In this document: positions 7,144 to 29,204 of the stretch, one piece after another
How the letters are laid out: the number at the start of each line of letters is the position of its first letter
Position numbering within the stretch: position 1 is the stretch's first letter
Assembly (NCBI GenBank): GCA_945836915.1
Contig: CAMAMO010000004.1
Coordinates: forward strand, 1 to 32,724
Length of the DNA: 32,724 nucleotides
Source: an uncultured Mediterranea sp.
GTDB lineage: Bacteria > Bacteroidota > Bacteroidia > Bacteroidales > Bacteroidaceae
Direction: 5' to 3'
Translations under genes and position numbers: made by a program
The notes under the pieces: generated by a model
Told to the model about the DNA's origin: nothing
The model's database searches: none
Seen by the model: only the letters and a program-made list of their open reading frames with translations

Positions 7144-7962
7144 TTATTTGTTAATCTGACGGTAGGCATCAACCGCTTTCTTAACTGAACCGTGCATTAA
7201 CAGCAGATCGCGAGCCTTGCCATAGTCCAGGCCTAATTCCTCCACAATCATGCGGGTACCACGGTCAACCAGCTTCTTGTTGCTCAGCTGCATGTTGACC
7301 ATCTTATTACCTTTTACACGTCCCAGTTGAATCATGACGGAAGTGGTTATCATGTTCAGAATCATCTTCTGACCAGTACCCGATTTCATGCGTGAGCTAC
7401 CGGTAACAAATTCCGGACCTACAATCATCTCAATGGGGATATCACTCTCAGCAGCCATCGGTGAATCAGGGTTGCTGGTAATGCATGCAGTGAGAATACC
7501 ATGCTCTCTGGCTTCGTGGAGGGCACCGATAACATAGGGGGTGGTACCGGATGCGGCAATGCCGATAACGGTGTCTTTGGGGCCAATACCACGTTCACAG
7601 AGTTCTTCCCAACCACGCTGCATGTTATCTTCTGCATTCTCAACAGGGTTTCTCAAGGCGGTATCACCACCGGCTATCAGGCCGATGACCAACGTGGGGG
7701 GCATACCGAAAGTTGGAGGAATCTCACTGGCGTCAAGTACACCCAGGCGGCCGCTGGTGCCTGCACCCATATAGAAGATGCGGCCTCCTTGTTTCATGCG
7801 GGGCACAATCTGATTGACCAAACGCTCAATTTGGGGAATGGCCTCTTTGACCGCAAGGGCCACCTTTTGGTCTTCGGTGTTGATATCTTCTAACAGTTCA
7901 CGAACGGACTTTTTCTCTAAATCGTTGTAGAGCGAGGGTTGCTCTGAAATCTTAATAAACAT
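7144..7962 (-). CDS. murQ: N-acetylmuramic acid 6-phosphate etherase
   Basis: 272 aa SIS-family protein: GGRIFYMGAGTSGRLGVLDASEIPPTFG, GIAASGTTPYVIGAL, GSSRMKSGTGQKMILNMI. Confidence 0.96.
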   Translation of the reverse strand: MFIKISEQPSLYNDLEKKSVRELLEDINTEDQKVALAVKEAIPQIERLVNQIVPRMKQGGRIFYMGAGTSGRLGVLDASEIPPTFGMPPTLVIGLIAGGDTALRNPVENAEDNMQRGWEELCERGIGPKDTVIGIAASGTTPYVIGALHEAREHGILTACITSNPDSPMAAESDIPIEMIVGPEFVTGSSRMKSGTGQKMILNMITTSVMIQLGRVKGNKMVNMQLSNKKLVDRGTRMIVEELGLDYGKARDLLLMHGSVKKAVDAYRQINK

Positions 7963-8014: not shown

Positions 8015-8851
8015 TTACTGATGGTATTTCAGCAGGCCCTCCATTGGAGCTTTGATAATGATGCCCATCTTCAAGCCTGTTTCTGATAGGGCTTCTTCCA
8101 GAATATCGCGGTAATACCAGGCCACAGAACCGTTAAATCCTACCGCGTAGTGCTGATAGTCATATTGCATTACGTTGCGAACCAGGAAGGCCTTGAAACT
8201 CTGTTTGACCAGTTGGCGTACTTCGGGTATGGTGATGTGCTCGGAAATAAAGGGCGACAATGTGGCCAAATAACGGTTAGGGAAAGGTTTGCGATAGACA
8301 CGGTCGATGATATCAGCCGGTGTCAGTTGGTAGCGTTCAAAAAACTTCTCTTTCAGACCAGCGGGGAGCTGGTTTTTTAGGAGATCACCAATAAACAGCT
8401 TGCCCAGCACCGCACCGCTACCCTCATCGCCGAGGATAAATCCTAAAGGAGAGACATTCGCTTCAATCTCTTTGCCGTTATAGAAGCAGGAGTTACTGCC
8501 TGTACCTAAAATGCAAGCGATTCCAGCCTCATGACCACAAACCGAACGCGCAGCGGCCAGCATATCACTGTTGACCTCAATTGCTGCCATATCGAGCGAC
8601 AAGACGCATGAAATGGCTCGGCGAACTATCTCCACCTTATCGAAAGCGCAACCAGCACCATAAAAATAGACCGCCTCAGGGCGTTTACCATCCAATTCAG
8701 GAAGAAGCGAGTGCTTCATCTCCTCTACCATCTCATCTTCACTTTGGAAGAACGGATTCATTCCTTTTGTCGGGATACGCTTTATGGCTACTCCCTTTTC
8801 GGCCATACACCAATCAGTCTTGGTTGAACCACTGTCTGCTATTAATATCAT
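8015..8851 (-). CDS. BadF/BadG-type sugar kinase, probable MurNAc/GlcNAc kinase (MurK-like)
   Basis: ADSGSTKTDW phosphate-1 motif, ACILGTGSNSCFYNG phosphate-2 motif, ILGDEGSG; directly upstream of murQ. Confidence 0.9.
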   Translation of the reverse strand: MILIADSGSTKTDWCMAEKGVAIKRIPTKGMNPFFQSEDEMVEEMKHSLLPELDGKRPEAVYFYGAGCAFDKVEIVRRAISCVLSLDMAAIEVNSDMLAAARSVCGHEAGIACILGTGSNSCFYNGKEIEANVSPLGFILGDEGSGAVLGKLFIGDLLKNQLPAGLKEKFFERYQLTPADIIDRVYRKPFPNRYLATLSPFISEHITIPEVRQLVKQSFKAFLVRNVMQYDYQHYAVGFNGSVAWYYRDILEEALSETGLKMGIIIKAPMEGLLKYHQ

Positions 8852-8916: not shown

Positions 8917-10074
8917 TTATATCTTAATATAGATGCGCCGCTTATAAAGAGGGTAGCCGATGCACCAACAGAGAGCAACGAAGAAGAGTGCATAGGCCAA
9001 TGACCCACCGGTATCTCCGAAGAGGGGCTGCAGGTATCCGTTGAATAGCCAGCCATGAAATCCTGTACTGCTCAGCAGAATGCTCAATACACCACCCAGG
9101 ATGTACATAAATAGGGGATTGATGCCAAAGGATTCGAAGAACAGACTCCATTTTTTCTTTCCTTTGACGTCGATAATCCATATTAGTAAGGCCAACAGAC
9201 TGGAAGCTAATCCGCAGGTTGTCAGTACAAACGTGGGCGACCATACCTTTTTGTTAATGGGACAGCCATAACTGAGCAGGAAGCCCGTAAAGGTTAGAAT
9301 GGTACCAATCAGAAAAAGCTTGACCAGCATGGGCGAAAGGCCATGTTCTTTCTCCTCTTTCGCTTTAGGACCAAAGAGCATTTCGCCCACTGTGAAGCCT
9401 AACAGTACATGGGCAATGGAGGGAAGGGTGCTTAACAATCCCTCGGGGTCTATACCATGATCCTTATACATGTGGGCGGGCGATAGAATGGCGCGATCTA
9501 CGATAGAGAGCACATTCTCTTCGCTATATGCAAAACCGTTGAAACAGAGTAGAACCACAGCGTAAACAGCTAAGATGATAGCTATGAGCCAGGGGATAAA
9601 GCGGTGCTTAACGGTTAACGCAATGATAGAAGAGGCGCAGTAACAAAGAGCCAGACGTTGCATGACGCCCAGATAGCGCATGCGATCAAAAGTCCACACG
9701 GAGGCCCATAGATTCTCACTGAAGCTCAACTCTTCTGGCGCTGAACTCCAGTAGTAACAGAAACGTGAGAACCACCCGATGGCCATGCCTATCAAGAAGA
9801 TGACCAGGGTTCGACGGGCTATCTTTAATGCCAGTTGGCGGCTATATTCAAAGCGGAGCTTCTTCAGTGAAATATAGGTTGAGATGCCCATGATGAACAT
9901 AAAGAAGGGGAAAACCAAATCGGTAGGGGTCAATCCGTTCCACTCCGCATGGCGCAGTGGGGCATAGATGTGACCCCATGAACCGGGGTTATTGACCAGT
10001 ATCATGCCTGCAATGGTGATACCTCGCAGGATATCGAGTGCCAGAATTCGCTGGCTTTTGGACGGTGTATTCAT
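8917..10074 (-). CDS. DUF5009/HGSNAT-like multi-pass membrane protein; probable MurT-like MurNAc transporter
   Basis: Multiple TM segments; HGSNAT-type RHAEWNGLTPTDLVFPFFMFIMG. Gene order DUF5009-kinase-murQ matches the murTKQ arrangement of T. forsythia as I recall it. Confidence 0.8.
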   Translation of the reverse strand: MNTPSKSQRILALDILRGITIAGMILVNNPGSWGHIYAPLRHAEWNGLTPTDLVFPFFMFIMGISTYISLKKLRFEYSRQLALKIARRTLVIFLIGMAIGWFSRFCYYWSSAPEELSFSENLWASVWTFDRMRYLGVMQRLALCYCASSIIALTVKHRFIPWLIAIILAVYAVVLLCFNGFAYSEENVLSIVDRAILSPAHMYKDHGIDPEGLLSTLPSIAHVLLGFTVGEMLFGPKAKEEKEHGLSPMLVKLFLIGTILTFTGFLLSYGCPINKKVWSPTFVLTTCGLASSLLALLIWIIDVKGKKKWSLFFESFGINPLFMYILGGVLSILLSSTGFHGWLFNGYLQPLFGDTGGSLAYALFFVALCWCIGYPLYKRRIYIKI

Positions 10075-13054: not shown

Positions 13055-14299
13055 TTATTTATAGAGATAGTATTTCTTTGAAAGTTGTCTGAAGCTCTCA
13101 ACATCTTTGTACCAGTAGTCGCTGATATCCGCCCAGCGGTTATTCTGGCTGAAGCGGGTGCGGATCTGCTTTGAGCCGCTCACCTTGTCGAACATGTTGA
13201 ATCGTCCCTTATCGGCATGATCGAATACCGCACGTTCGGGCCACAACTCAGCTACCGCCTCCATCAGTCGGAACTGAATCTCGGCTAAGGGGGCTTTCTG
13301 TATATCGGTAAGGTGTACTTGGACTCCCTGTAGCTGTTCACCTTTACCTACGCTGTAGAAGGGCTTCAGATAGATTGGACGGAAGATGACACCGGGTAAT
13401 TCCAAAGTGTTCAACTTGGTGGCCAGATGATGTGCATTCATCCAGGGCGCTGCAAACATCTGGAAGGGGATGGTATAACCCACTCCGATGCTAACATAAC
13501 CTAACTCACCCAGAATGCCGCTTACTGGGTAGAAGAAGGCTGAGTGGGCATGAGGAATGTGGGGCGATGAGGGAACCCACTGCAGACCAGTCTGTGTGTA
13601 ATCCATTTTACGCTTCCATCCCTTCATCTTTACGACATGAAGTTGGCATTGAACCCCTCCCTTGAGCATTCGTTCCCCGTTGAGCATCAGGGCCAGTTCG
13701 CCACACGTCAGACCATAGAGGTAAGGTATTTTGAACTGACTGACAAACGAGGTGCAATCATCCTCTGTTAGGTTGCCTTCAATCTTCAAACCTCCCAAAG
13801 GATTGGGGCGGTCAAGTACGATAAACTCTTTCCCGTTCTCAGCAGCTGCCTCCATGGCCAACCCCATGGTGCTGATGTAGGTGAATGAACGGCAACCGAT
13901 ATCCTGGATGTCATAGACCAATACGTCAATCTCCTTCAGCATGTCGGGGGTCGCTTTTCTGGTCTTGCCGTAGAGTGAATAGACCGGCAGTCCGGTGGTG
14001 GCATCTTTCAAGTCACTTACGTGGTCACCGGCGTGCACATCACCGCGCACACCGTGTTCCGGACCATAGAGGGCTACCAGATTGACCTCAGGTGCATTGT
14101 ATAGGATATCGATGGTAGAGTGCATGGTGTTATCCACACCCGTAGGATTAGTAATCAATCCCACGCGTTTGCCCTTCAGACATTCAAAGTGCTGATCCTT
14201 GAGCACCTCGATGCCTGTTTTTATGGTAATCTTCTGTGCTTGCAGTCCGCTGCAAAGCAGTACAGCAAGAAGGCTAAAAATCCATTGTTTCATAATCAA
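13055..14299 (-). CDS. DUF1343 protein, NamZ-type exo-beta-N-acetylmuramidase (paralogue 1)
   Basis: Signal peptide MKQWIFSLLAVLLCSGLQAQ; LYGPEHGVRGDVHAGDHV, YDIQDIGCRSFTYISTM, LDRPNPLGG, YLYGLTCGELALMLNGE. Confidence 0.9.
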   Translation of the reverse strand: MIMKQWIFSLLAVLLCSGLQAQKITIKTGIEVLKDQHFECLKGKRVGLITNPTGVDNTMHSTIDILYNAPEVNLVALYGPEHGVRGDVHAGDHVSDLKDATTGLPVYSLYGKTRKATPDMLKEIDVLVYDIQDIGCRSFTYISTMGLAMEAAAENGKEFIVLDRPNPLGGLKIEGNLTEDDCTSFVSQFKIPYLYGLTCGELALMLNGERMLKGGVQCQLHVVKMKGWKRKMDYTQTGLQWVPSSPHIPHAHSAFFYPVSGILGELGYVSIGVGYTIPFQMFAAPWMNAHHLATKLNTLELPGVIFRPIYLKPFYSVGKGEQLQGVQVHLTDIQKAPLAEIQFRLMEAVAELWPERAVFDHADKGRFNMFDKVSGSKQIRTRFSQNNRWADISDYWYKDVESFRQLSKKYYLYK

Positions 14300-14331: not shown

Positions 14332-15660
14332 CTATTTCTTTCCATAATTGGGGTCAATCTTTCGATCAACAAAGTAGGTTACAATCAGCGTTGCAATACA
14401 GCAAATCATCACCATGATGAAGAAGTTGGCATAGCCAATGGCCTCTTGTATATAACCTGCTACCATACCAGGCAGAAGCATACTGGCTGCCATGAAGGCG
14501 GTACAGATAGCATAGTGTGAGGTCTTGAATTCCCCTTCACTGAAATACATCATGTAGAGCATGTAAGCTGTAAATCCAAAGCCATAGCCAAACTGTTCAA
14601 TCGCCAGTGACGTGCAGATTGCAAGGATGTTGGTGGGCTGGAACATGGAGAGATAGACAAACGTGGCGCAAGGTAGCGTCATGAAGCCGGCCATAACCCA
14701 CAACGATTTTTTCAGACCAACTTTCGAGGCAAACGTTCCACCCAAAATACCACCGGCAGTCAGGAAAAAGACGCCCACACCACCATAAATCCAGCCTACA
14801 TCCTGTGTGGAGAGCCCCAGGCCACCGACCGCCTGATCGGCTACGAGGAAGGGGGTACACATCTTGATTAAGAAGGCTTCGGGTAAACGGTAAAGTAGCA
14901 TAAAGACGATAGCCAGTACGACACCTGGTTTAGTGAAATAGGTCTTGAAGGTTCGGCCAAACTCACTGAAGATGGTTGATGCGCTGACCTTTTCACTGCT
15001 CGAGCCAAGCACTGAGGCGTCTGATGCCGGTCTTGGAACAAAGAAGGTGTGGTAAATCGTGATGGCAGAGAAGAGGACAGCCGTAACCAGTAATGTGATA
15101 CGCCACGACATGGGGATGTTATCGCTCTCTTTCTCAATGGTGCCAGCAATCCAAACCAGAACACCCTGACCAAAGATACTGGCCAGACGGTAGAAGGTGC
15201 TGCGCCAACCTACCCAAGCCGCTTGCAGGCTCTGACTGAGTGCCAGCATATAGAATCCATCGGCGGCAATGTCATGGGTGGCACTGGCAAAGGCGGTCAC
15301 CACAAAAAGTAGCAGTGTAATGTAGAAAAGACTGATAGGTGTTTGCCCGGAAGCAATGGTGGCTGCGTCTGGAGCAGGCACTGTCAAGGTCAGCAGAATA
15401 AAGGCGGCTGCCATAATCATCTGCATCGTCAGAATCCACCAACGTTTGGTCTTGACAATGTCAATGAAGGGGCTCCAGAAAGGCTTAATCATCCAAGGAA
15501 GATAAAGCAAACTGGTAAAGAGCGCCATCTGGCCGTTGGGTACACCCATCTTAGCCAGCATCAATACACTGATGTTGTTAACGATGAAGTAGGGGATGCC
15601 CTGTGCGAAATAGAGGGTGGGCACCCAAAACATCGGAGAAATCTGTTTTCTGTATTCCAT
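14332..15660 (-). CDS. AmpG-like MFS permease (muropeptide importer)
   Basis: 12-TM MFS; MFWVPTLYFAQGIPYFIVNN, LLYLPWMIKPFWSPFIDIVKTKRWWIL, FASATHDIAADGFYM. Confidence 0.88.
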   Translation of the reverse strand: MEYRKQISPMFWVPTLYFAQGIPYFIVNNISVLMLAKMGVPNGQMALFTSLLYLPWMIKPFWSPFIDIVKTKRWWILTMQMIMAAAFILLTLTVPAPDAATIASGQTPISLFYITLLLFVVTAFASATHDIAADGFYMLALSQSLQAAWVGWRSTFYRLASIFGQGVLVWIAGTIEKESDNIPMSWRITLLVTAVLFSAITIYHTFFVPRPASDASVLGSSSEKVSASTIFSEFGRTFKTYFTKPGVVLAIVFMLLYRLPEAFLIKMCTPFLVADQAVGGLGLSTQDVGWIYGGVGVFFLTAGGILGGTFASKVGLKKSLWVMAGFMTLPCATFVYLSMFQPTNILAICTSLAIEQFGYGFGFTAYMLYMMYFSEGEFKTSHYAICTAFMAASMLLPGMVAGYIQEAIGYANFFIMVMICCIATLIVTYFVDRKIDPNYGKK

Positions 15661-15681
15661 GATCATTAGAAAGTGTTCGGA

Positions 15682-17091
15682 TTAATAGAGATGGGTCAGT
15701 TCGGCTCCGTTGAAATAGTGGGCCAGAATCGTTTGATAGTCGTAGCCTTGTGCACCCATAACGGCTGCTCCAATTTGGCAAAGTCCTACGCCATGTCCCC
15801 AACCGGCTCCAGTCAGGGTAAATTGGGCAGGAACCTGTTCTACATCTTGGGCGTTGGGTTCTGCTTTTTGGCTACCCTCTTTATCTACTACAAAGGCTGA
15901 GCTGTAGAGGTGACTGCTGGAAAGGGTGCGGCGGATTTCCAACTCCTTACCGATGGTGCGAGTCTGTTTCGTACCTACAATCTTCAGCTTCCACAGCCTG
16001 CCGCTTGTGCCGCGAGCAATGGGAATCAGGTCTATAATCTGGCCATAATCTACACCTGAACGTTTCAAGATTAGGGCGCTCAGCTCCTCTTGCGAGTATG
16101 AAACCTTCCAGCGGTAGAAGTCCGTAGTCTCCTGATCGTAGCTGTTGAGAACCTGACTTAGGATGGATTGGTCGTGGGTGTTACAGAAGGCTTTCGGCTC
16201 GGTGCGAATCCAGCGGTCAGCCTCCGCCTCAATTGAAAGGTCGGGGAACTGGGGTGCCTGGCCTGCGGCATCCAGCAGATCGGCTCTCCGTTTCAGGTAA
16301 GGGTAGTTTACGTTGTCCCAACAGTAAGCAAACTCCTCGAACGCTCCACCGCAGCACTTTGAGAAGCGGGCATCGCAGATACTTCCTTCCGAGGTGAGCA
16401 CTTCACCACGGGTGGCTTCAATGGCTTTCCGCACGGTATCTCTCGAGGCGCGGGTGATGCCTTGGTAGCGCTGGCAATGGTCATCGGCGCAAACGTCAAA
16501 GTTGGTATGTGCATCGCGCTCAAACCATTTGATTTGTTCCTCGCCATCTGTGGGTGTCTTGGGCATCTCGATACGGTGCGCTTCTGGGTGGGCTTTCAAC
16601 TGTGGGTAGTCACGCTCAATACATTTCATGCTGGCCAGTAGCCAACTGCGCGAAATCACGGCATGGGCTTTGAGCAGCTCTTCTGAAGCGGAGGCGCTCA
16701 TTTCGCTGCTGATGACCGAGGTGAGATAATCCTCTACACGGACATGGTTAACGGCAGTCAGCTTATCATGCTCGATAATGAGCTCCAGGGCACCTTTGAA
16801 GCGTTGGTTCTCCTTGCGTTGCCAGTGGAAATCTACACCGATGGTCACCTCTTTGAGCTCAAAGCAGCAACTCTCTTCGTCGGCGGGGATAAAGAGCAGT
16901 TTCTCCCACGTTCCGTGGCCTTTCCATGCTATCTTATGCTCTTCTATGGTGGCTTCGTGCAGTCCATTTATCTCCGGGCATGGGGTTTCTGTACCCTTTT
17001 CCATTGTTTGATGCACTTGATAGGTCCCAATCAATTCAAATTGAATGATTGGAGCTGACATGATGCCGACACTTACTCTTGGTTCTTTCAT
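15682..17091 (-). CDS. SpoIID/LytB domain protein without a recognisable signal peptide
   Basis: VEDYLTSVISSEMSASASEELLKAHAVISRSWLL, ARFSKCCGGAFEEF, GAGWGHGVGLCQIGAAVMGAQGYDYQTILAHYFNGAEL. Start set at ATG 17091 (MKEPRVSVGIM). Confidence 0.9.
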   Translation of the reverse strand: MKEPRVSVGIMSAPIIQFELIGTYQVHQTMEKGTETPCPEINGLHEATIEEHKIAWKGHGTWEKLLFIPADEESCCFELKEVTIGVDFHWQRKENQRFKGALELIIEHDKLTAVNHVRVEDYLTSVISSEMSASASEELLKAHAVISRSWLLASMKCIERDYPQLKAHPEAHRIEMPKTPTDGEEQIKWFERDAHTNFDVCADDHCQRYQGITRASRDTVRKAIEATRGEVLTSEGSICDARFSKCCGGAFEEFAYCWDNVNYPYLKRRADLLDAAGQAPQFPDLSIEAEADRWIRTEPKAFCNTHDQSILSQVLNSYDQETTDFYRWKVSYSQEELSALILKRSGVDYGQIIDLIPIARGTSGRLWKLKIVGTKQTRTIGKELEIRRTLSSSHLYSSAFVVDKEGSQKAEPNAQDVEQVPAQFTLTGAGWGHGVGLCQIGAAVMGAQGYDYQTILAHYFNGAELTHLY

Positions 17092-17098
17092 GATATGA

Positions 17099-18010
17099 TT
17101 ATTTGAGGTAAAGTTGTTTGATAGCTTCGCCACTCAGGCAAATCTCTTCTAAGATACTTGCCAGTAGCGAGGCGTTGATTTTATTAAAATCCTCTTCGAT
17201 GGGGAGGATAAACACGCCACCCAGATCGACTGATGCGGGACTGCTCAGCAGTCGCTCATCCCCCTCTGCATAGTAACAATCTGGGCGATGTTTGATGCGG
17301 GGGAAGATGCAAACCGTCCACCCTGTGGAGGCGTCATACATGGCCAATACGTTCATCATGGGTTCTGTATCATCAGCTTTCATCGGTAGGCGATTGTAAA
17401 GGCGATCAAACAGGGTCACTCCATCGGCCAACACCTTTGTATGAATCACGAGTGTGGTGCGCGGCGCGTCATCCATCAGGGACAGCGTGGCCTCTCCCTG
17501 TTGATCCAGGAGGGTCATGCACTTCTGTTTCACCTGCTCTTCAATAGGCATGAAGCCCTTGTTGCCAGCCTGGAAATGGGCATGGTCAGGAGCCGATGCA
17601 CCACATTTAGGACCATTATAGAAGATGGTAAAATCGGGCAATTCGGCTGTCAACTCCATCATGGCCAGTATCCTCCCTTTTATCCGCTGGTCCACGTGGG
17701 CCGAATCGGGGATGGTGAGGTGGCGGGGGAAGATGGGGAAGGGGTTGACGAGGATGTCATAATGACCACCCCATGCGATACCTTCCTGAACCTCTGGGCG
17801 ATTTTGGGCACAGAGGAAACATTTGCGTTGGCTGATGGCTTTGGCATCCACTTTCGCTCCTGATGAGACGATACGTGCGGGGTTGAACTGTACCTTATAG
17901 AGGGTACCGTTCAGGTCAATCTCTTTCACCTTGACCTCTTTCAGGGCCTCATAGTTGTTGCGAGCGGTCTCCCAGCGCTCCAGTTGTGAGGTGATAAAAT
18001 GGTTTATCAT
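17099..18010 (-). CDS. DUF4922 protein, GalT/HIT-superfamily-like putative nucleotidyltransferase/phosphorylase
   Basis: CFLCAQNRPE, YDILVNPFPIFPRHLTI, YNGPKCGASAPDHAHFQ (HxHxQ as in GalT). Confidence 0.82.
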   Translation of the reverse strand: MINHFITSQLERWETARNNYEALKEVKVKEIDLNGTLYKVQFNPARIVSSGAKVDAKAISQRKCFLCAQNRPEVQEGIAWGGHYDILVNPFPIFPRHLTIPDSAHVDQRIKGRILAMMELTAELPDFTIFYNGPKCGASAPDHAHFQAGNKGFMPIEEQVKQKCMTLLDQQGEATLSLMDDAPRTTLVIHTKVLADGVTLFDRLYNRLPMKADDTEPMMNVLAMYDASTGWTVCIFPRIKHRPDCYYAEGDERLLSSPASVDLGGVFILPIEEDFNKINASLLASILEEICLSGEAIKQLYLK

Positions 18011-18039: not shown

Positions 18040-19449
18040 TCAACCCTTTTTGTTCTGGGCAATACGTGCCTGCAACTCCCAGGTGCGAATGCGGTCCTTA
18101 TAGAGGTTGTGGGCATTCATTTTATTAATGTCGAGCGAAGCGTCGCTGTTGTCATCCCATCGGCGGCAGAGGTAAACCACGTCATACACACGGCCAATCT
18201 GGTACTTGCGGCTGAAGTTCAATCCTAAGGCATAGTCTTCACCGTAGCTTGTGTTAGGCACCTTCACCTCTCTCAGCACGGGTGTGTAGAAGGCACGCGG
18301 TGCACCCAGACCATTGATGCGCAGGGCGTTGTTTCGGCCATTCTCAGGCGTCCACTCCTTATGGTCAATGATACCCGGAGCAATCATGTTCATGTTGAAG
18401 TCGGTCATCATGTAGGTACCTACCACCATGGCGCAATTCTGCTCGTAGAAGGCGCGAACCATGGTAGTCAGCGTGTTCTCATCCTTATAGACGTCATCGC
18501 TGTCCAGCTGCACGGCAAACTTACCGCAAAGGGGGTGGTGAACACCCAGGTTCCAACAGCCACCGATGCCCAGGTCGTTGCGTTCAGGAATCAGGTGGAT
18601 GACGCGCTCATCCGCTTTGAATTCATCAATGGCCTCGGTCGTACCATCGGTGCTGTGATTATCGATGATGATAAGGTTGAATTTGAAGTCTGCCTTCTGG
18701 CTCAATACCGATTTGATGGCATCGCGGATGGTGCGGATGCGGTTGCGAACGGGGATAATGACCGAAGCCTCATAGGGGAAATCATCCTTTTCGAAAGCAA
18801 TCTTCTCGAACTTAGGCTCCAGATACCCTCCAATTTCCTTCAGATGTTCAGTGCAGGCTTTCTCCATTTCAATTTGGCGGTCGCGGTTCTTGGGATCCAC
18901 GTAGTCGAACATCTTCTCACCGCTCTTACGGGTATCCAGTTCAACCTCACTGTAGAGGAATTCGTTCATGTGTACCAGTTCGCACTTCTGGCTCAGCTTC
19001 AGACGCAGGTCATAAAGGCCAGCAAAGCGGTAATCGGCCTTCATGCGTTGAGCGGCCTCTTTCAGCTTCTCCGTGTTGAAGAGCAGTACTGAACCGAAAT
19101 CAAAATCGTCACGCAGAGAGCCCTTTTGGTAGTCGATGACTGGTGCGTTGATCTGCTTGCCCTCCTTGATTTGGTAATGGTCAGCGTAGATCATGCCCGC
19201 CTCCGTATCATCCATGATGCGAATCATGCGTTCCAAAGCAAACATGCCCAGCTGCAGCACCGTCTCCTTGGTATAAAGCAGGGTATAGGGCGATTGGCTC
19301 TTGGCGGCCATCTCCTTGATTGAGGCACTGCTGTAGGGGTTTTCTACGGTGTGAATCTCTGCTACAAGACCTGTAGCTTGTAAACCTTCCATGGTACGTT
19401 TTGCCAACTCGTCGGCTGCACATGCGATAAAGCAACTGATTTTCTTCAT
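18040..19449 (-). CDS. Family 2 glycosyltransferase, apparently soluble, with a ~220-aa N-terminal extension
   Basis: YEASVIIPVRNRIRTIRDAIKSVLSQ, NLIIIDNHSTDGT, AVQLDSDDVY (DxD-type). No TM segment evident. Confidence 0.9.
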   Translation of the reverse strand: MKKISCFIACAADELAKRTMEGLQATGLVAEIHTVENPYSSASIKEMAAKSQSPYTLLYTKETVLQLGMFALERMIRIMDDTEAGMIYADHYQIKEGKQINAPVIDYQKGSLRDDFDFGSVLLFNTEKLKEAAQRMKADYRFAGLYDLRLKLSQKCELVHMNEFLYSEVELDTRKSGEKMFDYVDPKNRDRQIEMEKACTEHLKEIGGYLEPKFEKIAFEKDDFPYEASVIIPVRNRIRTIRDAIKSVLSQKADFKFNLIIIDNHSTDGTTEAIDEFKADERVIHLIPERNDLGIGGCWNLGVHHPLCGKFAVQLDSDDVYKDENTLTTMVRAFYEQNCAMVVGTYMMTDFNMNMIAPGIIDHKEWTPENGRNNALRINGLGAPRAFYTPVLREVKVPNTSYGEDYALGLNFSRKYQIGRVYDVVYLCRRWDDNSDASLDINKMNAHNLYKDRIRTWELQARIAQNKKG

Positions 19450-25899: not shown

Positions 25900-27066
25900 T
25901 TACTCTTTATAGAGCAGATAGGGTCTTCTTTGTTCTTTGAAGAGCTTGACGTCGTCTTGCCATTTGGCTTTGATTTCCTCAGCACTACACCCCTTCTTAA
26001 TCATCTTGCGAACATAATCGGTGCCAATAAGCAGTTCGAAGAAGGAACGGAAGAAGTGGTCATCCATGTTGAGGTTGCGGTAGGCGTCGATGACGTAAGA
26101 GAGGTCCACGCCTCGTTTCCAAATCTCCTCATCGCTCATGCCGCTCAAATCTACGCCATAGCAGGTCTTATTGAGTTGTGGGGGATTTTTGGCTCCCTTT
26201 ACACTCCGTGGAGTAAAACTAAACTGATATCCCTTCATGTTAGGGTGACCATAAACTTGGAAGGGCTTGTCGGTACCACGGCCCAGGCTGACTGGCGTAG
26301 CCTCGAAGTAGCAGATAGAGGGGTAGAGATAGATAGACTTCATGTTGGGCAGGTTCGGACTGGGTGGAATAGGCAGTTCGTACATCGTCTGATGCGTGTA
26401 GTTCTTACAGGGAATCACCGTCAGATCGGCCACGCGTGAAGCGGGCAACCACCGTTCCCCATTCACCATCAGCGCCAGTTCGCCCAGCGTCATGCCATGA
26501 ACTACGGGTATAGGCAGCCCACCTACTCCCGATTTATACTTCATATCCAGAATCGGACCATCTACATAGTGACCGTTAGGGTTGGGGCGATCCAACAGCA
26601 ACACCTTGCGGTTATACTGTGCACAGGCATCCATCAGTTGGCACATCGTAACGTAGTAGGTATAGAATCGCAGTCCTACATCCTGAATGTCCACAATCAG
26701 AATGTCAAACTTCCGCATCGAGGTTTCGCTGGGCCGCTTTTCCTTGCCATCATAGAGCGAGAGGATAGGCACACCTGTTTTTGAATCCACTGAGCTCGAT
26801 ACATGTTCACCGGCATCCGCATCTCCGCGGAACCCATGTTCAGGCGAGAAGATAGCCACCACATTCACCCCCTTCTCAAGAAGAAGGTCAAGTAGATGTT
26901 TGTCTCCCACCATTCCCGTGTGATTGGAGAAAATAGCCACCCGTTTATTCTTTAGGATAGGCAGGTACAATTCAGTCTGCTCATCCCCCATAACCACCTT
27001 CTGGGCGGCTACAAAAGGGGGTAAGCACATCGTTAATACCATTAAGCATACAAGCAATTTCTTCAT
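25900..27066 (-). CDS. DUF1343 protein, NamZ-type exo-beta-N-acetylmuramidase (paralogue 2)
   Basis: Signal peptide MKKLLVCLMVLTMCLPPFVAAQ; FSPEHGFRGDADAGEHV, VDIQDVGLRFYTYYVTM, LDRPNPNGHYVDGP. Confidence 0.92.
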   Translation of the reverse strand: MKKLLVCLMVLTMCLPPFVAAQKVVMGDEQTELYLPILKNKRVAIFSNHTGMVGDKHLLDLLLEKGVNVVAIFSPEHGFRGDADAGEHVSSSVDSKTGVPILSLYDGKEKRPSETSMRKFDILIVDIQDVGLRFYTYYVTMCQLMDACAQYNRKVLLLDRPNPNGHYVDGPILDMKYKSGVGGLPIPVVHGMTLGELALMVNGERWLPASRVADLTVIPCKNYTHQTMYELPIPPSPNLPNMKSIYLYPSICYFEATPVSLGRGTDKPFQVYGHPNMKGYQFSFTPRSVKGAKNPPQLNKTCYGVDLSGMSDEEIWKRGVDLSYVIDAYRNLNMDDHFFRSFFELLIGTDYVRKMIKKGCSAEEIKAKWQDDVKLFKEQRRPYLLYKE

Positions 27067-28292: not shown

Positions 28293-29204
28293 TCAGAACA
28301 GCTTGTCGGGGTATTCGCCAGCGTCAATCAGGGCTTGAATCTTATCTACTACACTTTGGCGATCTTCGGGATAGGTTACGCCGAACCACTTGCTGGTGGT
28401 ATCGAGCACCTTTACCGTAGCGGTACCCTCTTTGATTAGTTTATCCACCATCAAGGGGATGAAGAACTCGCTCTTCAGGTTCTCCATGTTCTTGGAATCG
28501 CTCAGGAAATCTACAAAGTAGCTCTTGCTATAACCGAAGTAGTCGGGCGTAAAGCCCCAGAAGTTCATGCTAACGGGGGTGTTTTCGGGGGTAGCAGTCC
28601 ATTCGCCGTTGTCATCGATGTACTTCACCTCACCCTCGCGACGCTCTATTTTGGTGCGTTCTACCACGCTGGTCAGTAACTGGTTCTCGTCCGTACCGCA
28701 GAGTCCACGAGATACCGTACCGCTTTCGCTCAGTGTGTTGCCAATTCGGAAGCCTACCATGGCATAGGTGTTCTTTGAGCCTTCGGGCAGGTTGCTCAGG
28801 AACTCGCCCATCACGCGGTAGCTGTCGCGACCGTAGAAGTCATCGCAGTTAATTACAGCAAAGGGTTCGTTAATCACATCCTCACCCATCATCACGGCGT
28901 GGTTCGTACCCCAAGGTTTTTGGCGGCCTTCGGGGCAGATAAAGCCTTCGGGCAGTTTGTCAATAGACTGGAAGACCAGTTCGCAAGGGATGTGACCCTC
29001 ATATTTCGAGATAATCTTCTCACGGAAATCCTGTTCAAAATCCTTGCGGATTACGAAGACCAGTTTGCCGAATCCGGCCTTGATGGCATCGTAGATGGAG
29101 TAATCCATGATGGTTTCACCATGAGGTCCCAGACCGTCAAGCTGTTTCAGACCTCCGTAACGGCTGCCCATACCGGCAGCAAGTAAAAATAATGTTGGTT
29201 TCAT
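28293..29204 (-). CDS. Sugar-phosphate nucleotidyltransferase-like protein (NTP_transferase fold)
   Basis: N-terminal LLAAGMGSRYGGLKQLDGLGPHGETIMDYSIYDAI, FAVINCDDFYG. Confidence 0.85.
   Translation of the reverse strand: MKPTLFLLAAGMGSRYGGLKQLDGLGPHGETIMDYSIYDAIKAGFGKLVFVIRKDFEQDFREKIISKYEGHIPCELVFQSIDKLPEGFICPEGRQKPWGTNHAVMMGEDVINEPFAVINCDDFYGRDSYRVMGEFLSNLPEGSKNTYAMVGFRIGNTLSESGTVSRGLCGTDENQLLTSVVERTKIERREGEVKYIDDNGEWTATPENTPVSMNFWGFTPDYFGYSKSYFVDFLSDSKNMENLKSEFFIPLMVDKLIKEGTATVKVLDTTSKWFGVTYPEDRQSVVDKIQALIDAGEYPDKLF

Follow-up and report, generated by a model that had tools for sequence, protein, structure and literature searches.

The DUF4922 protein encoded in the window (the whole 32,724-nucleotide stretch of DNA that was analysed) can be placed with high confidence, from its sequence and a predicted structure, in the HxHxQ transferase/phosphorylase branch of the HIT/GalT superfamily, nearest to phosphorylases and outside GalT in the strict sense. 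It belongs to a near-obligate three-protein cytosolic module, found in nature as a triple fusion, that lies beside the permease AmpG and comprises a GT2 glycosyltransferase, DUF4922 and a SpoIID-domain protein; the GT2 and SpoIID partners were absent from the original prediction made for this DNA. The trio probably has a role in AmpG-linked salvage. As a best explanation, to which we give roughly even credence, DUF4922 would be a cytosolic ping-pong nucleotidyl enzyme that, together with GT2 and SpoIID, processes AmpG-imported disaccharides before MurK and MurQ act on them. The computed part of this explanation comprises the predicted fold, the conservation of catalytic residues, co-occurrence, fusion and operon-like gene order. 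A domain of unknown function that is wide in gut and oral Bacteroidota thereby gains a testable enzyme class.

A conserved HxHxQ active site

The protein matches PF16269 (DUF4922) at E 4e-66 (221.8 bits, above the gathering cut-off of 23.6), and none of the NCBIfam models matched it. The original prediction had read an HxHxQ active site, a CFLC pair and an NPFPIFPRH stretch from this gene, and translation of the minus strand places all three exactly where it had put them (Table 1), with codons 143-147 (HAHFQ) running from 17584 down to 17570 and residues 136-147 reading CGASAPDHAHFQ, as noted earlier. In an alignment of 67 diverse homologues, 35-77% identical to the window protein, C64, H97, H105, N132, G137, S139, H143 and H145 are invariant, whilst C67, D142 and Q147 each deviate in a single sequence (66 of 67 conserved). 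Five of the eight histidines of the protein are conserved in at least 95% of the sequences, four of them within the motifs (97, 105, 143 and 145). As the motif residues hold in all or all but one of the homologues down to 35% identity, the motif goes beyond chance, and the conservation of H143 and H145 on which the original prediction depended is complete in the family. Such (near-)invariance of catalytic residues would be needless in a mere sensor, which makes it extremely improbable that DUF4922 is a catalytically idle nucleotide-sugar sensor regulating GT2, an idea that the physical fusion to the glycosyltransferase would otherwise suit.

Table 1 Features of the window, all on the minus strand
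Feature	Position	Strand	Basis or remark
Second NamZ, upstream end of same-strand run	25900..27066	-	
GT2 glycosyltransferase, tandem GT-A domains, near-obligate DUF4922 partner	18040..19449	-	
DUF4922 protein, GalT/Apa2-type fold	17099..18010	-	303 aa
C64-F-L-C67, putative zinc ligands (cf. Cys52/Cys55 of E. coli GalT)	17810..17821	-	conservation; putative assignment
NPFPIFPRH, residues 89-97, H97 invariant	17720..17746	-	homologue alignment
H105, invariant; putative third zinc ligand (GalT His115 position)	17696..17698	-	putative assignment
H143-A-H145-F-Q147, predicted catalytic HxHxQ	17570..17584	-	alignment of 67 homologues; alignment to Apa2
SpoIID/LytB-domain protein without signal peptide	15682..17091	-	
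AmpG-family muropeptide permease	14332..15666	-	TIGR00901 E 3e-49, under its curated cut-off
NamZ exo-N-acetylmuramidase, signal-like N-terminus	13055..14299	-	
HGSNAT/DUF5009-like membrane protein	8917..10074	-	putative T. forsythia MurT position, from gene order (PMC5388701)
MurK-type BadF kinase	8015..8851	-	order as T. forsythia murTKQ
MurQ MurNAc-6-P etherase	7144..7962	-	TIGR00274 E 1e-91

Fold and nearest relatives

An AlphaFold2 model of DUF4922, with the 67-homologue alignment as input, reached a mean pLDDT of 94.5 and a pTM of 0.92. Its top match in a Foldseek search of the PDB was the yeast Ap4A phosphorylase Apa2 (4i5t, E 9e-10, TM 0.58), the second was the DUF4931 protein 4qvu (E 2e-5), then came CDP-diacylglycerol pyrophosphatase (E 7e-4), and E. 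coli GalT (1hxq) was matched at E 1e-3 and TM 0.3; a viral fold library gave weak giant-virus matches only. The sequence profile likewise reaches Apa2 (E 1.8e-6), and the two active sites line up. Among the 67 members, 57 touch the Pfam model Ap4A_phos_N and 16 touch ATP_transf (E up to 1), and the window protein itself falls below the curated Ap4A_phos_N cut-off (13.8 vs 23.1 bits; Ap4A phosphorylase being PF19327 plus PF09830). With Apa1 and Apa2 it shares, from end to end, the two-half HIT/GalT fold, as well as the N..G..S..DHxHxQ site and an FP..PxH strand; it differs from Apa2 in that identity is 17% and that the aligned Apa2 residues hold neither the CxxC nor a histidine at position 105.

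The superfamily placement offered by the original prediction is thus borne out by the model and structure search that it had proposed as a check, whilst its "GalT-like" label fails in the narrow sense, the nearest relative being an Ap4A phosphorylase. Identity with the Leloir enzyme GalT was tried and rejected: hhalign aligns DUF4922 to E. coli GalT over 42 columns only, the active-site stretch, and there is no GalT Pfam match. In E. coli GalT the second histidine of HxHxQ is nucleotidylated. Given the HIT/GalT fold, the profile match and the invariant H143 and H145, DUF4922 very probably acts through a nucleotidyl-His145 intermediate, as judged from sequence and model. The conserved CxxC...H...H pattern of C64, C67, H105 and H143 is likely the counterpart of the GalT zinc site, where zinc is bound by Cys52, Cys55, His115 and His164 (PMC5081055), with a presumed one-to-one correspondence of the ligands.

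Apa2 is the best match by both fold and sequence, and DUF4922 could accordingly be a housekeeping dinucleoside polyphosphate (Ap4A-type) phosphorylase with no sugar role. We rank this low, as highly improbable, because DUF4922 is nearly confined to trio-bearing genomes and is fused to a glycosyltransferase and a SpoIID domain, unlike Apa1/Apa2, which have neither partner; C64, C67 and H105 are also missing from the aligned Apa2 residues. HxHxQ chemistry is used by the plant GDP-L-galactose phosphorylase VTC2/GGP and by GDP-D-glucose phosphorylase as well. According to PMC9871823, DUF4922 falls into one CDD superfamily, cl14728, with VTC2/GGP and the animal GDP-D-glucose phosphorylase, both of which come from other organisms and another context; in CDD terms the relation to VTC2/GGP was already known (PMC9871823, PMC11047344). 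These plant papers were all that a literature search on DUF4922 returned, a search for HIT/GDP-glucose phosphorylase papers gave no match, and no solved structure of VTC2/GGP or GDP-D-glucose phosphorylase turned up in the searches made.

A peptidoglycan recycling operon

The gene sits in a closely spaced run of 14 same-strand genes extending from 27066 down to 5231, in the order NamZ, Na+/solute symporter, Golvesin-domain protein, metallophosphoesterase-PQQ protein, GT2, DUF4922, SpoIID, AmpG, NamZ, FAD oxidase, HGSNAT/DUF5009-like protein, BadF kinase (MurK-type), MurQ and beta-lactamase/GDSL. Co-location with AmpG, NamZ, MurK and MurQ marks this as an AmpG-linked peptidoglycan recycling operon. 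The longest open-reading frame of the SpoIID gene starts at a GTG at 17133, and the orthologues begin with MKEP, corresponding to the ATG at 17091. The gene order matches the ampG-murTKQ operon of Tannerella forsythia, in which Tanf_08345-08385 (xanthan lyase, gtf, gtf, lytB, ampG, ybbC, murT, murK, murQ) form a single transcript (PMC5388701). Tanf_08355, the second "gtf", is labelled a glycosyltransferase there with no function assigned (PMC5388701); its window counterpart is DUF4922, and from gene order and Parabacteroides it should be a DUF4922 protein itself. Where the window has the HGSNAT/DUF5009-like protein, the T. forsythia operon has MurT, so that this protein may be a MurNAc transporter by analogy. 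Near a NamZ and a BadF kinase, positions 28293-29204 encode a sugar-nucleotidyltransferase-like protein (weak NTP_transferase, close to structure 3pnn of unknown function at E 1e-133) with a possible MurU-like activity.

The original prediction had tied DUF4922 to salvage, a link that operon, co-occurrence and fusion now back, and had gone on to suggest that the enzyme turns a MurNAc-derived phosphate into UDP-MurNAc, or the reverse, so connecting salvage to UDP-sugar pools. GalT-type chemistry would make such a step plausible in an operon with NamZ, AmpG, MurK and MurQ. We nevertheless hold it improbable: the kinase/etherase pair of the operon, MurK and MurQ, leads via MurNAc-6-P to GlcNAc-6-P, so that the pathway can do without a shortcut through UDP-MurNAc; the operon has no MurNAc 1-kinase, and this reading accounts for neither GT2 nor SpoIID. 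Nothing in the analysis points specifically to UDP-MurNAc as the DUF4922 substrate.

Co-occurrence and fusion of the trio

We surveyed 248 Bacteroidota genomes (cut-offs E 1e-40 for GT2, 1e-30 for SpoIID and 1e-50 for AmpG) and found DUF4922 in 37. The GT2 partner was present in 36 of these 37 genomes vs none of the other 211, as was the SpoIID partner without signal peptide (36/37 vs 0/211), and an AmpG-type permease was present in all 37 vs 43 of 211. The Fisher values of 1e-42 for GT2 and SpoIID are overstated, as the genomes are not independent samples, and the co-occurrence of the trio is partly due to shared ancestry. Yet it holds where the genes are unlinked: GT2 is unlinked from DUF4922 in 8 of 36 genomes, and SpoIID falls within 10 kb in 15 of 36, the other 21 having it farther off than that or on a separate contig. 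The 16 close relatives sampled divide into 10 that carry the whole trio and six that have none of it, and one genome (G656) has the trio spread over three contigs. That scattered trio genes are retained or lost together argues for one function. It counts against the salvage role that, outside Bacteroidales, many genomes have the trio away from peptidoglycan genes, so that co-occurrence with AmpG is the remaining link there.

GT2 and DUF4922 are adjacent almost throughout 66 genome loci, and many Prevotellaceae encode all three proteins in a single open-reading frame of ~1,240 aa, with AmpG following. The sampled set held 32 triple fusions and five GT2-DUF4922 joins (one of them, L039, cut by the contig end), and parsimony on the DUF4922 tree needs four changes between fused and separate states. 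Across 42 loci the GT2 and DUF4922 identities correlate at r 0.91, as expected of co-inherited genes. Gene gaps in some neighbour lists (e.g. L005) are probably an artefact of greedy ORF picking and not biology.

GT2 is a 469-aa protein with a mean column identity of 59%, vs 43% for DUF4922. Its model (pLDDT 91) shows structural similarity to the tandem GT-A enzyme K4 chondroitin polymerase and to TarP/TarS, and its second domain bears DSDD and GED motifs; the N-terminal half (~residues 1-225) is a second GT-A-like domain without an obvious DxD and likely degenerate. The SpoIID orthologues begin MKEPKV.VGI and have no signal-like hydrophobic stretch, in contrast to the NamZ proteins, and this absence, together with the fusion behind GT2 and DUF4922, argues on sequence grounds for a location in the cytosol, which would in itself be unexpected for a SpoIID/lytic-transglycosylase domain. 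The region of the conserved SEM glutamate aligns with SpoIID structures, and a chlamydial SpoIID is described as both a lytic transglycosylase and a muramidase (PMC9928106).

Proposed role in disaccharide processing

T. forsythia requires the importer AmpG for growth on GlcNAc-MurNAc and GlcNAc-anhMurNAc, is predicted to lack AnmK, and the fate of the fragments after AmpG is a question its authors call open (PMC7670621). The GT2-DUF4922-SpoIID module is a strong candidate for processing these imported disaccharides without AnmK in T. forsythia, a task possibly analogous to that of the anhydro-MurNAc kinase route of E. coli for imported anhMurNAc sugars, although the proteins are unrelated. AnmK was found in one of 10 trio-bearing vs four of six trio-lacking close relatives, a weak association (Fisher p 0.036) whose pattern follows lineage, and in relatives at least 90% complete the counts are 0/7 vs 4/5. 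The window's own genome carries AnmK on a 3.3-kb contig and the control genome Bacteroides ihuae has matches for both AnmK and DUF4922, which counts against the trio as an AnmK substitute.

Within the favoured explanation we infer the substrate, the direction, the zinc and the order of steps. AmpG would import GlcNAc-MurNAc or GlcNAc-anhMurNAc, and the cytosolic SpoIID would open the anhydro ring or trim the fragment. GT2 would then run in reverse, converting disaccharide and NDP into NDP-GlcNAc and MurNAc, the latter to be taken on by MurK and MurQ. In DUF4922, probably zinc-stabilised, His145 would attack the alpha-phosphorus of the nucleoside-diphosphate sugar, sugar-1-phosphate would leave as nucleotidyl-His145 forms, and the nucleotidyl group would be handed to phosphate (or a sugar-1-phosphate), so that NDP-GlcNAc is phosphorolysed to GlcNAc-1-P and NDP is regenerated. 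That DUF4922 runs in this direction, as an NDP-sugar phosphorylase, appears an evenly balanced proposition. The full scheme, a cytosolic GT2-DUF4922-SpoIID complex that phosphorolyses peptidoglycan disaccharides via a catalytic NDP shuttle with SpoIID opening 1,6-anhydroMurNAc, is put forward tentatively and is unlikely to hold in every part. If true, NDP-shuttle phosphorolysis would take the place of hydrolysis by NagZ and AnmK and save the energy of the glycosidic bond as GlcNAc-1-P. Sucrose synthase is a precedent for a glycosyltransferase used in reverse, and GT2 enzymes normally run forward, which counts against the proposal. So does the sole DUF4922 genome without SpoIID (L113, 4383-10101), where a NagZ-like GH3 with no obvious signal directly behind DUF4922 could cleave the disaccharide instead; AmpG and NamZ lie ahead of DUF4922 at this locus.

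A forward GT2 would fit the main rival explanation, a donor-supply role in which DUF4922, as a Leloir-type NDP-sugar:sugar-1-phosphate nucleotidyltransferase, provides GT2 with a dedicated NDP-sugar for transfer to an acceptor that might be a muropeptide sugar brought in from outside or a glycan of the envelope. A glycosyltransferase fused to its own donor-making enzyme is a natural arrangement, and a distant Persicobacter DUF4922 has an APH-family kinase as its neighbour within a locus for glycan utilisation, which resembles the way Bifidobacterium pairs N-acetylhexosamine 1-kinase and a GalT-type enzyme. We regard this role as a real possibility, if a rather unlikely one: it leaves the cytosolic SpoIID domain and AmpG unexplained, fold and profile both place DUF4922 closest to phosphorylases, and the main operon showed neither a sugar 1-kinase nor an epimerase.

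The Persicobacter protein (L126, 8881-9861, plasmid pPP6 of Persicobacter psychrovividus) aligns with the main family at hhalign E 2e-16 with the same CxxC...H...HxHFQ pattern, its active site reading HHHFQ. The neighbouring APH-family kinase, GH2, phosphodiesterase-family protein and SusCD-type glycan locus possibly represent a second functional context; it is a single example, as a search of 295 Bacteroidia genomes for DUF4922 of this type beside an APH kinase turned up nothing outside the main family. At two other loci (L098 and L110) the DUF4922/GT2 pair adjoins response regulators with SpoIIE phosphatase domains, and one genome holds a second GT2/DUF4922 copy (G047:C140:4589-8723) that looks broken, with an in-frame TAG in GT2 and DUF4922 in two pieces ~1.8 kb apart.
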